DNA of 64,000 bases. Source: Nitratiruptor sp. SB155-2. Its GTDB lineage: Bacteria; Campylobacterota; Campylobacteria; Campylobacterales; Nitratiruptoraceae. Both the position numbers and the translations under genes were made by a program. Positions 9,204 through 55,526 of this stretch are shown piece after piece. The stretch is from contig NC_009662.1 in the NCBI RefSeq assembly GCF_000010325.1, positions 764,501 to 828,500 of the forward strand. Reading direction: 5' to 3'. Position 1 is the stretch's first letter. Each line of letters begins with the position of its first letter. The notes under the pieces were generated by a model, which saw only the letters and a list, made by a program, of their open reading frames with translations, had not been told where the DNA came from and searched no databases.

Positions 9204-9620
9204 TTAAATACAGTAATCTATATGTGATCTGGCTTTGAGTCTGTATTCGTCAAAGATAGTGATCGGCCTGGAAAGAAAATTCTGAATCGTTTTGTTAAAA
9301 TCGCTCCACAACGCTTCTAATACAGGGTTTTGGGTTCTACATATACCGGTACAGCACTCTGGTTCTACGCTATTGATTATATCGATTAAAAGAATCTCTT
9401 TGGGAGGTTTGGCTAAAATATATCCGCCTTTCGCTCCACGAATTGATTTGACGATACCACTTTTTTTCAGATCCAACAGGATCTGTTCCAAAAAATTTTT
9501 GGGGATAGAGCCAAGTTTGGCTATCAATTCTGTCTTCAGTGGCTTGTTTTCGTTGTAATGTTCATATAGGACAAAAATCGCTGCAATCGCATAGGATCCT
9601 TTTGCTGAAACAAGTGCCAT
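9204..9620 (-). CDS. Rrf2-family transcriptional regulator
   Basis: A 138-residue winged-helix protein of the Rrf2 family (relatives IscR, NsrR, CymR, RsrR). The family features are SAKGSYAIAAIFVL at the N-terminus, the recognition helix region IPKNFLEQILLDLKKSGIVKSIRGAKGGYIL, and a short cysteine segment with Cys89, Cys90 and Cys94. IscR and NsrR carry three spaced cysteines for an Fe-S cluster; here two are adjacent and only one follows, so cluster binding is uncertain. The ATG at 9620 has GGAG six bases upstream and overlaps the stop of the upstream DUF4395 gene by one base; an in-frame TTG one codon earlier is less likely. Likely autoregulator of this two-gene operon. Confidence 0.88.
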   Translation of the reverse strand: MALVSAKGSYAIAAIFVLYEHYNENKPLKTELIAKLGSIPKNFLEQILLDLKKSGIVKSIRGAKGGYILAKPPKEILLIDIINSVEPECCTGICRTQNPVLEALWSDFNKTIQNFLSRPITIFDEYRLKARSHIDYCI

Positions 9621-10045
9621 CAATTACTCCATTTTTGTATTTGTTGATACACAACACATCCTACACAAAATCCAAAAAGTGCTTCAAGCATTATACATAA
9701 AAGTAAAATGGAGGCAAACGTATATGAAACGACAGGAATCGTAGCACTCACTATGATACATATTGCAATAACAAGTCCCAGTTTCAATGCAAAATTTTTA
9801 GAAGCTCCATCCTCTAACTTCGGTCGTATCGCAAAGAGGTTTTGTATCAATTTGGCAGTATACAGGAAAGGAGCCAATCTTTTATCAAAAAGTCTCAAGA
9901 TCATCTCAAATACCACGGGAAGAAAAAAGAGAATATTTTGTGACAACAGATACAAAAGCGTAAAAAGAATGAAAAAAAGTCCACTGATGCGAAGTTGTAC
10001 TACATCGACTCTTTCTGATGAAATGGGGCAAGAATTGAAGTGCAT
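9620..10045 (-). CDS. DUF4395 membrane protein
   Basis: A 141-residue protein with the DUF4395 start (CPISSERVD at residues 6-14) followed by a hydrophobic pair (about 18-50) and a second pair (about 88-130), so probably four membrane segments. The function of the family is unknown; members often lie near thiol or sulfurtransferase genes, which is established context rather than something seen here. Cysteines occur at the N-terminus and in the last membrane region (FCVGCVVY). It is first in a two-gene operon with an Rrf2 regulator and has a near-consensus promoter. Role inferred at most as membrane-associated thiol or iron-sulfur stress related. Confidence 0.75.
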   Translation of the reverse strand: MHFNSCPISSERVDVVQLRISGLFFILFTLLYLLSQNILFFLPVVFEMILRLFDKRLAPFLYTAKLIQNLFAIRPKLEDGASKNFALKLGLVIAICIIVSATIPVVSYTFASILLLCIMLEALFGFCVGCVVYQQIQKWSN

Positions 10046-10067
10046 AAACCTCTCCTGATAAATTGTA

Positions 10068-10101
10068 CTGCCATTATAATGCAGAGAGGCAAAAATGTCA
10101 A
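10068..10101 (-). promoter_or_regulatory. Near-consensus promoter of the DUF4395-rrf2 operon with overlapping palindrome
   Basis: Reading the minus strand, a perfect -35 TTGACA (10096-10101) is followed after exactly 17 bases by a perfect -10 TATAAT (10073-10078), 27 bases from the start codon. Overlapping the -10 is a near palindrome, CTGC-ATTATAAT-GGCAG (10068-10084), suited to bind a dimeric repressor such as the Rrf2 protein encoded downstream. The promoter is directly visible; the operator assignment is inference. Confidence 0.8.
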
Positions 10102-10141
10102 GTAAATCAGTTGAAATAGTAGGGTATGAAGGGGAGAGGGC

Positions 10142-10660
10142 CTATTTATAGTTCTGTATGGCCTCTTCCAAAATCTTTTCAGCTTCCTCTTTCCCTTTAT
10201 ACTCTTTCACTTTTACCCATTTGTTCGGCTCAAGAATTTTATATGTTTCGAAAAAGTTCTTGATCTTATCGAGCGTGTGTTTCGGTAAATCCTCTATAGT
10301 TGTAATATGATCATATGTAGGGTCAACTTTTGAAACAGGTACGGCCAGTAATTTTTCATCCATGCCGCTCTCATCTTCCATGACAAGAACACCAATGAGC
10401 CTACATTTAATGACACTACCTGGTACGACAGGGTAATCGCACAATACCATAATATCGGCAGGATCTCCATCTGCAGCGAGCGTATTTGGTACAAAACCGT
10501 AATTTGCAGGATAAAACATCGCACTGTACATGACACGATCTACCCATATAGCGCCACTCTCTTTGTCCAGTTCATACTTTATGTTTGATCCGTAAGGAAT
10601 CTCGATGAGTGCGTGCACTTTATCTGGAGACTCCCCATGTCCAATTTTTTCTAGATTCAT
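10142..10660 (-). CDS. ppa: Inorganic pyrophosphatase (family I)
   Basis: A 172-residue soluble pyrophosphatase (E. coli enzyme 175). The metal-binding signature DGDPADIMVLCD is intact, as are the N-terminal EIPYGSNIKYELDKESG and the VDPTYDHI stretch. It hydrolyses PPi from biosynthesis and so pulls aminoacylation and polymerisation reactions forward. It lies 50 bases downstream of the DUF503 gene on the same strand, with a TATAAT-like -10 at 10687-10692 in the gap, so it may have its own promoter besides read-through. Confidence 0.97.
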   Translation of the reverse strand: MNLEKIGHGESPDKVHALIEIPYGSNIKYELDKESGAIWVDRVMYSAMFYPANYGFVPNTLAADGDPADIMVLCDYPVVPGSVIKCRLIGVLVMEDESGMDEKLLAVPVSKVDPTYDHITTIEDLPKHTLDKIKNFFETYKILEPNKWVKVKEYKGKEEAEKILEEAIQNYK

Positions 10661-10710
10661 ATGCTCTCCTCTTGATGGTTTTGCGTATTATATTGAAAAA
10701 TAGTTGTAAA

Positions 10711-10986
10711 TTAGATTAGTTCATATTGAAGGGATATTTCTAGGTCGGGGAAATGGGTTTCCAACATCTTTTCCAGATTTTCTATTTTTTCATTGGCATC
10801 TTGCGCACTGCTTGCAAAAAAGAGTAACTCTAGGTGGCCCTCTTTAGCATATTCTCCGCTGATGTCGGCAACGCACATATTTTTGTTTTTAAGCTTATCT
10901 TTGATTGAATGCAGAATTTTGCGCCGCCCTTTGAGAGATTGGACGAATGGAAGATCGATGGTTACAAAGACATGAACTATCTGCAA
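10711..10986 (-). CDS. DUF503 (YlxP-like) small protein
   Basis: A 91-residue protein matching DUF503: a hydrophobic beta-strand start ([12 protein letters not shown]), the conserved SLKGRRKILHSIKDKLKNK, then VADIS and a C-terminal beta segment with DLEISLQYEL. DUF503/YlxP proteins have a ferredoxin-like fold and in Firmicutes sit beside rbfA; function is not established. Here the gene overlaps the end of the cinA-like gene by 10 bases and precedes ppa. I infer only that it belongs to the aspS-feoA-adk-cinA operon. Confidence 0.75.
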   Translation of the reverse strand: MQIVHVFVTIDLPFVQSLKGRRKILHSIKDKLKNKNMCVADISGEYAKEGHLELLFFASSAQDANEKIENLEKMLETHFPDLEISLQYELI

Positions 10987-11726
10987 TTATCTACCTTGTA
11001 GGAAAATCCCCTTTTTTCAACTTCATGGATAATGTAATCAAACCACTCCTTTGCCATTTTCTTGTCATAAGAAGCGATGGAGAGTACATCCATATATTGT
11101 CCATTGTTCATAGAAGGCAGTGATGAAAACTCGATCTCTTTCGGAATTTTTTGCATGATATCTAAAAGATCGTTTTCGCTAGCATCAATACAGATGGAGT
11201 ATCGGAATTTTTCTCTATTTTTTGGAAAAAATAGATCGAGTGCCTGTCGGACCATAGGATGGGCCATTTCGGGGAAACCAGGAACAAAGAAGAATCTATT
11301 TTCAATATAAAACCCTGGCACATTGTTGACAGGGTTGTCCAAAAGCTTTGCCCCTTTTGGAAGCATCGCCATATTGATACGATAAGGATAGGCAGCCTCT
11401 TTGAATTGATCAATTATGCGCCTTTTTGCCTCTGGATGTTCATACAGCTTTCCATCTCCAAAAACTTTTGCTGCTACCATTCTTGTATGATCATCGGGGG
11501 TGGCTCCTATGCCACCAAAACTAAAAAGAACGCTATTTGGATCGCTTTTAATGAGTCTATAGAATGATTCCATTAAAGCGGGATCGTCTTCTATGATAGA
11601 GGATGCTTTGAGAGTGAAGCCGCGTTTGAGCAGTTCATCTCTCAAAAACGGGAAGTGTTTATCTACTCTTCGACCGTTCAGTATTTCCGTACCTATGATA
11701 ATGGCATAGAAATTAGGCGTTTTCAT
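10977..11726 (-). CDS. CinA N-terminal-type (MoaB/MogA fold) protein, COG1058
   Basis: A 249-residue protein with the molybdopterin-binding-like fold of the CinA N-terminal domain: [18 protein letters not shown] at the start, [14 protein letters not shown] near residue 89, and [22 protein letters not shown] near residue 150. In CinA this domain is an ADP-ribose pyrophosphatase-like unit joined to a nicotinamide-nucleotide deamidase; the deamidase half is absent, so the protein is the short stand-alone form. It overlaps adk by 14 bases and DUF503 by 10. Its precise substrate is unknown. Confidence 0.85.
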
Positions 11727-52085: not shown

Positions 52086-52382
52086 ATGGCAAAAACGCAT
52101 AGTGAAATCAAACTGTTTAATCTTTACGGAACAAAAGAGGGTATTGTAAGTGTTGCACACATTACTGAACCTTATGGTCCAGAGAGTGAACCGGTTGTGA
52201 GTATTGGAATCTCGCTCAAAGGGAATGCTCTTAATCCAGAGTGGAAAGTTCATATCCCTTATGAAAATATCGACGATCTGATTGAAGCTCTGGAATTAGC
52301 GAAAAAAGAATTCGGAAAAGACTACATTCCAGATGAATCGGCAAAACCACTTGATCACGACGAAAGTATAGGCGGGGATTAA
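52086..52382 (+). CDS. Small acidic protein of unknown function
   Basis: A 98-residue cytosolic protein, no signal peptide: [30 protein letters not shown], then a helix ([19 protein letters not shown]) and an acidic end (DHDESIGGD). Single-gene unit with its own -10 box and a strong ribosome-binding site, pointing to high expression. It ends convergently with the ribonucleotide reductase gene, overlapping by 4 bases. No family recognised; possibly a lineage-specific conserved protein. Confidence 0.75.
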
Positions 52383-54331
52383 TCGATTTGACAACTCTGG
52401 GTGCTGCAAAAGCGCTCAGAGTCAGCATGATGTCCGCTCAATGTATTCCACTCAACTTTAGGTAACTGTGTCACTCTCTTTTCAAATTCTTCTTTTTTTA
52501 TTGATTCAAAGGGCATTTGCGGATATATAGTTTCTTTTTCCGGCAAAAGCGTTAATGACTTGATCATCGGCAAAAAATGTTTGACAATTTGACTGAGATC
52601 TTTTGCGTCATATCGGGTTGGATCGAATTGAATGGTATTCGAGACCATATTGTCCGCCCATTCTCTTTGTAGCATAGTGAGTACCAGCATCTGTTCATAG
52701 ATATCTACTTCTTTTATCGATCGAGGATTGTCGTAATGGATAGGAAATGCAAAAACGTATGAGTTCTTATCATAAATATCCTCTTCAAACGAAAGTCCAG
52801 AATCTATCAAAAGTTTTGCCAGTTTTGATGTTTTACCGATTCTAATACGTCTAAGAGCATATGTGGCGAGAGGATAGTGCATTCCAGGACTTGTTCCAGC
52901 CAGTATACTGATTGTACCTGACGGTTTTACGCATGTAACTTTCAGCGATACTGGGATGCCAGCTTCTTTTGCCAATCTTTCATTCACTGTGCGTACCTTT
53001 TCATATCCTTTGCGTAACCATTTGATGATAGTTTCCAGTCCAAATTTTTCGATGGCATCCGCTACTCCGGAAACGCTTACGCCTATTCTTCTGTTTCTTG
53101 CTATGATCTCATTTGTTTCTGGTCTATGGGTTGGTAAAAGATTGACTGTTGAAGCATAAAATGTCGCATATTCAATGAGTTTTTGAAAATCCTCTTCATT
53201 TGAACATTTGGAGATGAAGATTTCGCTCAAATTACATAGCTCATAGCTTTCCAAAGCTATCTCGCCACAGGGGTTGCTCAGCCATGCTCTATCTGGTACG
53301 ATCTCTCCAAACCGTCCATATTTTTGCATATTTTCAAGATGCAAAACGCCTGGTTCACCATTGCTTGCGATCAATGACGTTATTGCATCGATATAGTGGA
53401 AATCATCAAGATTTTCAATGACCACAGAGTTATTGGAAATCCAACCATACTCTTTTCTCTCCGGAAATTTTTCATAATCTTTGAGATGTAAAAAAGTTTT
53501 ATCCCCCGGTCTACCGATAGCTATTTCGGCAGATCGCCTTATATTTCCAGAAACGACGCAAAGACCGATATTGTTAAACAGATCGACAACACATCTGGTT
53601 TTGTCAATTTTTTTATCCAGATAATCATCAAGAATCTGTTCTATCTTTTTATGTAGCCTTTTCAGAGGTTCGGGACCTGGTGCAATCCCTCCAAAAGTTT
53701 TCAAAGGAGATCCGGCAGGACGGATCTTGGAATAATCAAATCTGTAAAACGGACCATTATCGGTATAGCTCTGTATCAACAATCGGACCGACTTGACCCA
53801 TCCCTCTTTGCTGTCATCTATTACATAGATTTTGGGATGTTTTTTATCGGGTTTGGTCGCTTTGCCACTCCATGCTGTATTGAATCCAACTCCGGCTCCT
53901 ACCATCAACATATCCATGGCCCATTCTGCTGCATGTGCCAGATTGCTTGTATCGACGGCGGCACAATTGTAAAGTCCTGCACTACCTCTTTCATACATAT
54001 AGCGAGTACCCATCATCCATAAGCCTCGTCCTGGAGGAAGCCATCTGAGCTGAAGCATACTCAAGGCAAACTCTTTGGCAAATATCTGGGCTTGCTCTTC
54101 ATCCCATGGAAGATGGTAATTGAGTGCATGATTTTTACGGATAGAAAAGATGCCTTCCGTTACACGTATGACCGTATCAGGCCAATGTTCATTGGTGCCA
54201 TCTTCTTTGAGTCGGCTGTAGCTTCTATAAAACGTAACTTCACTGAGCAATCCAAATCCAAATCGGTAAGGAGTGTTTTGCAGAAGTTCTTTTGTTTGGG
54301 AGGGGAGCTTGAAAAAATGCTCTACATACAT
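52379..54331 (-). CDS. Adenosylcobalamin-dependent ribonucleotide reductase (class II, monomeric RTPR type)
   Basis: A 650-residue reductase making deoxyribonucleotides with vitamin B12. Diagnostic features: [12 protein letters not shown] near residue 97, the redox cysteine in YNCAAVD, the active-site loop [21 protein letters not shown] cut to [15 protein letters not shown] (Cys, Glu, second Cys), [16 protein letters not shown] and the C-terminal reducing pair CSTQSC at the end. This resembles the Lactobacillus leichmannii RTPR rather than the dimeric NrdJ or class I NrdA, and is shorter than 739. No riboswitch is seen in the 28-base gap to aspC. Last gene of the ubiX-to-RNR run. Confidence 0.88.
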
Positions 54332-54344
54332 GGTTGGCCTTTAC

Positions 54345-54360
54345 AAGGGCCAGAGCCCTT
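54345..54360 (-). other. Short hairpin between aspC and the ribonucleotide reductase gene
   Basis: On the minus strand AAGGGC-TCTG-GCCCTT (perfect 6-bp stem, 4-base loop) overlaps the aspC stop and precedes the reductase gene by 13 bases. There is no U-run after it, so it is not a strong terminator; it may affect mRNA processing or translation of the reductase. Low confidence as a functional site. Confidence 0.3.
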
Positions 54361-55526
54361 TAATAGTTAGAGATGAAACGTCTAATGCGTTTGATTCCTT
54401 CCCGAATTGTATCGATATCAGTTGCGAAGCTGAATCGAAAATATCCTTCGCTTCCAAAGCCAATACCAGGTACTACAGCGACTCCCTCTTTTTCAAGAAG
54501 CTCTTTGGCAAATTTCATACTATCTTGTTCTATTGCACTGTGGTTGACAAAAAGATAAAAGGCACCCTGCGGTTTTAACACGGATATGCCTTCTATTTCA
54601 TTGAGGAGTTGTACCGCTTCGTCTCTCCTTTGCTCAAACGCTCTTCGCATCATCTCTATATCTTCATCAATCGTTCCATCAAGTCCGGGAATTGCTGCTT
54701 TTTGTGTAATGGAGCAGATATTGGATGTGCTTTGGCTTTGCAGTTTTTTCATCGCTCTGACAAGCTCCGTATTGCTCGAAGCGAGGTAGCCAAATCTCCA
54801 GCCAGTCATTGCTGCTGACTTACTGAGGCCATTGATCGTTATCGTTCTTTTGTGCATATCTTCACTAATTGATGCCGCACTTGTAAATACAAGATTATCG
54901 TATACGAGCTTTTCATACATTTCGTCACTTGCGACATAAACATTCGTTCCTTCAAGTACTTTTGCAAGGGCTTCTAGTTCCTCTTTTGAGTAGACCGCTC
55001 CGGTTGGATTGGATGGAGTCGTTAGTATGAGAAGCTTGGTTTTGGATGTAATTGCTTCTTTGAGCTGTTCCGGGGTTATTTTAAAACCTGTATTTTCATC
55101 AGTTTCGATGATCACAGGTTTCCCTCCGGCATATTTGACAAGTTCTGGATACGTTACCCAATAGGGTGAAGGAATGATGACTTCGTCGCCTTCGTCGATA
55201 AGAGCCTGAGTGAGATTGAAAAGGCTCTGCTTCGCACCGTTACTTACGATGATGTGTTCTGGTTTATAGGTAAGATCATTGTCCCTTTTGAGTTTATCAA
55301 CGATAGCGGCTTTGAGCTCAGGAATGCCGTCTACGGCAGTATACTTGGTAAAACCCTCTTCGATGGCTTTGATTGCCGCATCTTTGATTGCCTTTGGAGT
55401 GTCAAAATCGGGTTCTCCCGCCGAGAAGCTCAAAACATCTTTTCCACTTGCCTTGAGTTCCTTTGCCAAGGCTGTTATGGCCATAGTGAGAGATTCTGAA
55501 AGTTGATTGATTCTATGGGATAACAT
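54360..55526 (-). CDS. aspC: Aspartate aminotransferase
   Basis: A 388-residue PLP aminotransferase of class I, subgroup gamma: SAGEPDFDTPKAIKDAA near residue 36, LTTPSNPTGAVY and the PLP-lysine in GLSKSAAMTGWRFGYLA near residue 232. It converts aspartate and 2-oxoglutarate to oxaloacetate and glutamate. Length is normal. It precedes the ribonucleotide reductase gene by 28 bases and lies just 1 base after cysE. Confidence 0.93.
   Translation of the reverse strand: MLSHRINQLSESLTMAITALAKELKASGKDVLSFSAGEPDFDTPKAIKDAAIKAIEEGFTKYTAVDGIPELKAAIVDKLKRDNDLTYKPEHIIVSNGAKQSLFNLTQALIDEGDEVIIPSPYWVTYPELVKYAGGKPVIIETDENTGFKITPEQLKEAITSKTKLLILTTPSNPTGAVYSKEELEALAKVLEGTNVYVASDEMYEKLVYDNLVFTSAASISEDMHKRTITINGLSKSAAMTGWRFGYLASSNTELVRAMKKLQSQSTSNICSITQKAAIPGLDGTIDEDIEMMRRAFEQRRDEAVQLLNEIEGISVLKPQGAFYLFVNHSAIEQDSMKFAKELLEKEGVAVVPGIGFGSEGYFRFSFATDIDTIREGIKRIRRFISNY

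Follow-up and report, generated by a model that had tools for sequence, protein, structure and literature searches.

A monomeric-type, B12-dependent ribonucleotide reductase of Nitratiruptor sp. SB155-2 as a likely conditional backup beside class Ia and class III enzymes

The gene nrdJ of the vent bacterium Nitratiruptor sp. SB155-2 is located at 52379..54331 on the minus strand of the window, which is the whole 64,000-nucleotide stretch of DNA that was analyzed. It starts with ATG and encodes a 650-aa protein, annotated as a monomeric-type adenosylcobalamin-dependent ribonucleoside-triphosphate reductase (RTPR; NrdJm). We consider it very likely that the product of nrdJ is a working monomeric ribonucleotide reductase (RNR) of class II, that the gene was acquired horizontally as a short-insert NrdJm, and that it acts as a conditional, B12-salvage-dependent backup. 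Its sequence, catalytic residues, predicted fold, genomic surroundings, distribution, and place in a tree were established here, whereas its cofactor use, substrate level, physiological role, and direction of transfer are inferred. The importance of nrdJ is modest and lies in showing that Campylobacterota have a clade of B12-dependent reductases with a short insert and viral kin. In the present host, B12 is apparently salvaged, and the idea of NrdJ as the main reductase is not supported.

The earlier note had read this gene as a class II RNR of the Lactobacillus type, and the ORF, the motifs NPCGE and LPPGRGLW (residues 98–105), and the C-terminal CxxxxC were all confirmed. The Pfam search of the 650-aa protein showed matches to RNR_Alpha (84.5 bits), the RNR barrel (53.8 bits), and the B12-dependent insertion domain PF21995 (37.1 bits against a cut-off of 27), all above their cut-offs; PF17975 also matched above its cut-off. 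The best NCBIfam model was TIGR02505 (RTPR), with 329.9 bits and 2.8e-98. This score is 3% below the curated cut-off of 340.05 bits, so NrdJ is not filed under that equivalog by rule, and the NrdJm assignment is carried by the biochemical features predicted from the protein rather than by the TIGR02505 rule. The best sequence match in the PDB was the RTPR of Lactobacillus leichmannii (1l1l, 3.6e-74). The fold of NrdJ was modelled from 39 sequences (mean pLDDT 86.8, pTM 0.89), which superseded a poor earlier model from 5 sequences (pLDDT 51). The predicted fold aligned with 1l1l over 613 residues (rmsd 2.6 Å, Z 43.6) and covered residues 6–634, while Z was ~33 for dimeric class II structures and at most 35 for class I. 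Judged from sequence and predicted fold, NrdJ is a Lactobacillus-type RTPR, that is, a class II RNR, and a chance likeness is far excluded.

The residues C123, N353, C355, E357, C366, C642, and C647 were invariant in the alignment of Campylobacterota, phage, and Lactobacillus-type enzymes. NPCGE (residues 353–357; 53261..53275, minus strand) would provide the substrate Asn, the thiyl-radical Cys355, and Glu357. The predicted active-site redox cysteines are C123 (53963..53965, minus strand), which aligns with the N-C of Lactobacillus-type RTPR, and C366 (53234..53236, minus strand). The C-terminal shuttle pair C642-x4-C647 (FCSTQSC; 52391..52408, minus strand) is present, and its two residues are putative turnover cysteines linked to thioredoxin. 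The triphosphate-substrate motif of the RNR loop has been published as P-x-G-R (PMC8365446). PPGR at residues 99–102 (54026..54037, minus strand) aligns as this apical phosphate-binding loop and predicts ribonucleoside triphosphates as substrates.

The alignment also showed a shortened insertion from GRGLW to DSKEGW (residues 106–172; 53816..54016, minus strand). It has 67 aa compared with 123 aa (GRxLW to REGW) in Lactobacillus-type enzymes, indicating that part of the insert has been trimmed. The insertion extends into the beginning of the insertion domain that mimics a dimer (PF21995 match at 164–234), and the PF21995 model is unmatched over its first 31 positions, unlike in the L. leichmannii RTPR. 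The two enzymes share the catalytic cysteines, NPCGE, the C-terminal CxxxxC, P-x-G-R, and the fold, but they have only ~31% identity and 650 and 739 aa, respectively. NrdJ would probably still be monomeric despite its trimmed insert.

A full or nearly full NrdJ was found in 19 of 397 Campylobacterota genomes. Two genomes carried two copies: in G359 they lie on the same strand ~1.4 kb apart (L118:5822-7837 and 9226-11217), and in G190 they are on L111 and L112. The phylogenetic tree, built only from NrdJm rows other than eukaryotic ones, placed 22 Campylobacterota sequences in one clade (support 100/98). The viral contigs L119 and L120 stood next to this clade, followed by phages and further viral contigs, and the whole short-insert NrdJm group was apart from the Lactobacillus type. 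This result was unchanged when either long viral row was omitted. Like NrdJ, the enzymes of the Actinobacteria phages Nebkiss and DSL-LC01 and of the IMG/VR contigs L119 and L120 have the short insert and the same tail, with 38–48% identity; these relatives are phage-borne, whereas the Campylobacterota nrdJ is chromosomal and forms its own clade. An alignment query retrieved 595 viral relatives, while the viral scan with the single NrdJ protein as the query gave 0 matches. Because the sampling was heavy for viruses and light for bacteria, the viral kinship inferred from these sequences can be called firm, and a viral donor cannot. The transfer suggested by the earlier note is supported by the patchy distribution and by the viral nature of the nearest sampled relatives. 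nrdJ was most likely acquired from elsewhere, and the short-insert subtype, which is common in phages, would have reached Campylobacterota through horizontal transfer.

nrdJ is already known from a published family tree. Lundin et al. (2010; PMC3019208) grouped a class II NrdJ of Nitratiruptor with the monomeric enzymes of eukaryotes and considered horizontal transfer, and that protein is very probably the present NrdJ or its orthologue. That study named one epsilonproteobacterial sequence, whereas a 22-sequence clade with viral sisters was obtained here. The NrdJm of Thermus virus P74-26 is monomeric and B12-dependent, reduces GTP, and uses host thioredoxin (PMC6459318). It is of the monomeric class II type like NrdJ, but it belongs to a different NrdJm branch close to Firmicutes, and the related Thermus phage enzyme in our tree was outside the short-insert clade.

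The aspartate-aminotransferase-like gene aspC (54360..55526, minus strand) is located 28 bp upstream of nrdJ on the same strand, and the two are presumably co-transcribed. A convergent 98-aa ORF (52086..52382, plus strand) overlaps the nrdJ stop by 4 nt and is the conserved downstream neighbour. Every nrdJ found in the family stands between aspC and this ORF, with the end of aspC marking the conserved insertion point; two MAGs titled Nitratiruptor have the same locus. In some relatives, the region between aspC and nrdJ encodes an STT3/PglB-like protein that carries WWDYG as a motif (L105:2439-6211, L106:7955-10090, L008:2907-4961), and a second large membrane protein is also inserted there in L105. 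Outside the family, the nrdJ neighbourhoods differ among most genera. The G+C content of nrdJ is 40.7%, compared with 39.8% for the window, and no compositional foreignness was seen. With a dN/dS of ~0.06 against its closest relative (G029), nrdJ is evidently under purifying selection. The low dN/dS and the ordinary composition suggest that the gene is in use and that its acquisition is not very recent.

The absence of B12 synthesis and uptake genes, which the earlier note had named as contrary evidence, applies by half. CbiD and CobS were absent in searches of the own genome, indicating that there is no standard de novo B12 synthesis, while candidate genes for salvage were present. The genome encodes BtuR, with metH a few genes before btuR and a TonB receptor resembling BtuB directly after it (272.5 bits against a cut-off of 599.7). 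BtuR, MetH, and the BtuB-like receptor point to a cell that salvages corrinoid, and the presence of BtuR is consistent with adenosylcobalamin dependence of NrdJ. A cobalamin riboswitch was sought and none was found. Directly after btuR and the receptor gene lies a gene for a 183-aa membrane-like protein (L014:10231-10782, plus strand), which had no match in Pfam or NCBIfam and is possibly an inner-membrane corrinoid transporter.

A clear BtuR was detected in 11 of the 397 genomes. BtuR and NrdJ occurred together in 8 of 397, more than expected (Fisher p 8e-10, uncorrected for relatedness). There were 11 NrdJ-bearing Campylobacterota genomes without a recognisable ATP:corrinoid adenosyltransferase of either the BtuR or the PduO/EutT type (G057, G190, G218, G237, G287, G304, G359, G364, G371, G378, and G396). 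The PduO/EutT-type family PF01923 gave 0 matches above its curated cut-off in the 397 genomes and one weak match below it, and no neighbour that might explain the adenosylcobalamin supply was common to the nrdJ genomes lacking BtuR. The adenosylcobalamin supply across the NrdJ clade is thus only partly explained, which counts against a functional backup, as do the lack of a riboswitch hit and the narrow shortfall of the TIGR02505 score.

The genome is complete in a single contig of 1,877,931 bases (1.88 Mb). A search for nrdAB and nrdDG, as the earlier note had proposed, found both sets: class Ia with NrdA (789 aa) and NrdB (341 aa), located elsewhere than nrdJ, and class III with NrdD (707 aa) and NrdG (227 aa; NrdG2 model above its cut-off). 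NrdJ is therefore not the sole reductase. All three RNR classes occur together in fewer than 8% of bacteria, according to an RNR database figure cited in PMC2864759. In the proposed mechanism, homolysis of adenosylcobalamin would turn C355 into a thiyl radical, the cysteines C123 and C366 would reduce the 2′-OH of the ribonucleoside triphosphate, and the C642/C647 tail would bring electrons from thioredoxin. Such an enzyme would tolerate oxygen without requiring it, and would stand as a third RNR next to the oxygen-dependent class Ia and the oxygen-sensitive class III. NrdJ most likely would serve as a conditional backup that depends on B12 salvage, for example during oxic–anoxic shifts. Ralstonia eutropha H16 without the class III genes of its megaplasmid regains denitrifying growth when cobalamin is supplied, most likely via NrdJ (PMC2864759). 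By analogy, this rescue may be regarded as the nearest model for the proposed role.

Three other explanations were weighed. The barrel domain PF02867 is common to NrdJ, class I, and dimeric class II enzymes, and on this ground the RTPR-type reading might be wrong, with the protein being either a dimeric class II enzyme or the alpha chain of a class I RNR. We regard this as practically negligible. The class I model for NrdA/NrdE (TIGR02506) gave 28.7 bits against a cut-off of 341, and no nrdB is nearby; the dimeric class II model for NrdJd/NrdJ_Z (TIGR02504) gave 67.7 bits against a cut-off of 400, and the loop is PPGR instead of P-N-S-P. Both scores are far below that of TIGR02505, 1l1l is the best fold by a wide margin, and NrdJ has both the CxxxxC tail and the insertion domain PF21995. 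Instead of the grouping with class I that the earlier note had named as contrary evidence, the HMM scores and the fold ranking point to NrdJm. It is also very unlikely that nrdJ is a passenger recently derived from a phage and of little use to the cell. Many phages carry NrdJm, and phages and viral contigs are the nearest sampled outside relatives; however, the synteny is conserved over the family among ordinary chromosomal genes, and neither the dN/dS nor the G+C content of nrdJ fits such a passenger.

The earlier note had further raised the case of NrdJ as the main growth reductase, with DNA synthesis dependent on adenosylcobalamin and independent of oxygen. The gene is intact, under purifying selection, and held at one locus throughout the family, where it comes 28 bp after aspC in the same orientation, preceded by a series of housekeeping genes. 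These features would suit a main enzyme. Against it, the class Ia and class III sets of the genome are both intact, B12 is not synthesised de novo, and nrdJ is missing from several close relatives. In addition, the class III NrdD is up with N2O in Nitrosophilus labii, a related thermophile from vents (PMC11539149). NrdJ is probably not the main reductase of this strain, and we hold that role to be unlikely compared with the conditional backup.

The class III reductase of this genome appears to be split, which is relevant here because it bears on which enzyme works without oxygen. NrdD ends after CPKHGY...CPKC, that is, past three cysteines of a putative zinc site. The glycyl-radical segment KRTKCMVYTRVMGYHRPVESFN (RVMGY) is encoded by a separate 56-aa gene (L015:7945-8115, minus strand) between nrdD (L015:8112-10235) and nrdG (L015:7280-7963). 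This gene has its own start codon, an ATGA overlap, and the Shine-Dalgarno sequence AAGGAGG, and nrdG is next. Its product covers the final 33 positions of the NRDD profile, and its dN/dS against G029 is ~0.015. Counterparts were found at L038-L059, L095-L103, and L199-L202, and the spacing of the two parts in relatives ranged from -4 bp (or shorter, by the start chosen) to 832 bp. NrdD was present in 207 of the 397 Campylobacterota genomes. Among the matches listed, at least ~21 were fused without a stop, at least 37 had the parts in one frame but separated by stop codons, and most others ended near profile position 530. NCBI annotates both pieces in Sulfuricurvum, Bradyrhizobium, and Aquabacterium plasmids. 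As far as these sequences indicate, the split class III reductase is widespread in Campylobacterota and also occurs on some Proteobacteria plasmids. No description of a split NrdD was found in the literature searched.

We give an even chance to a natively split NrdD with a replaceable, zinc-docked radical subunit as its oxygen-sensitive part, in the manner of YfiD, with NrdJ as a second, oxygen-tolerant safety net. YfiD is a spare part of pyruvate formate-lyase, and such spare parts have been validated for that enzyme only, according to the YfiD literature (PMC8683613); the 56-aa protein would be a built-in equivalent. If true, the split enzyme, widespread in a largely microaerophilic phylum, would be a natural system in which to ask whether cells replace that portion of a radical enzyme which oxygen has damaged. 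We judge it more important and more surprising than nrdJ, and it deserves a separate study. The fused enzyme L093 has CPxC in the first zinc motif and no Cys before VYTRVMGY, whereas enzymes with CxxH in that motif, fused or split (L094, L097, and the split forms), have this Cys. The pattern suggests that the 56-aa glycyl-radical protein may carry the fourth zinc ligand of NrdD. In G364, a NifU/IscU-like ORF (L047:3231-4063) lies between the two nrdD halves, indicating that the halves are separate genes.
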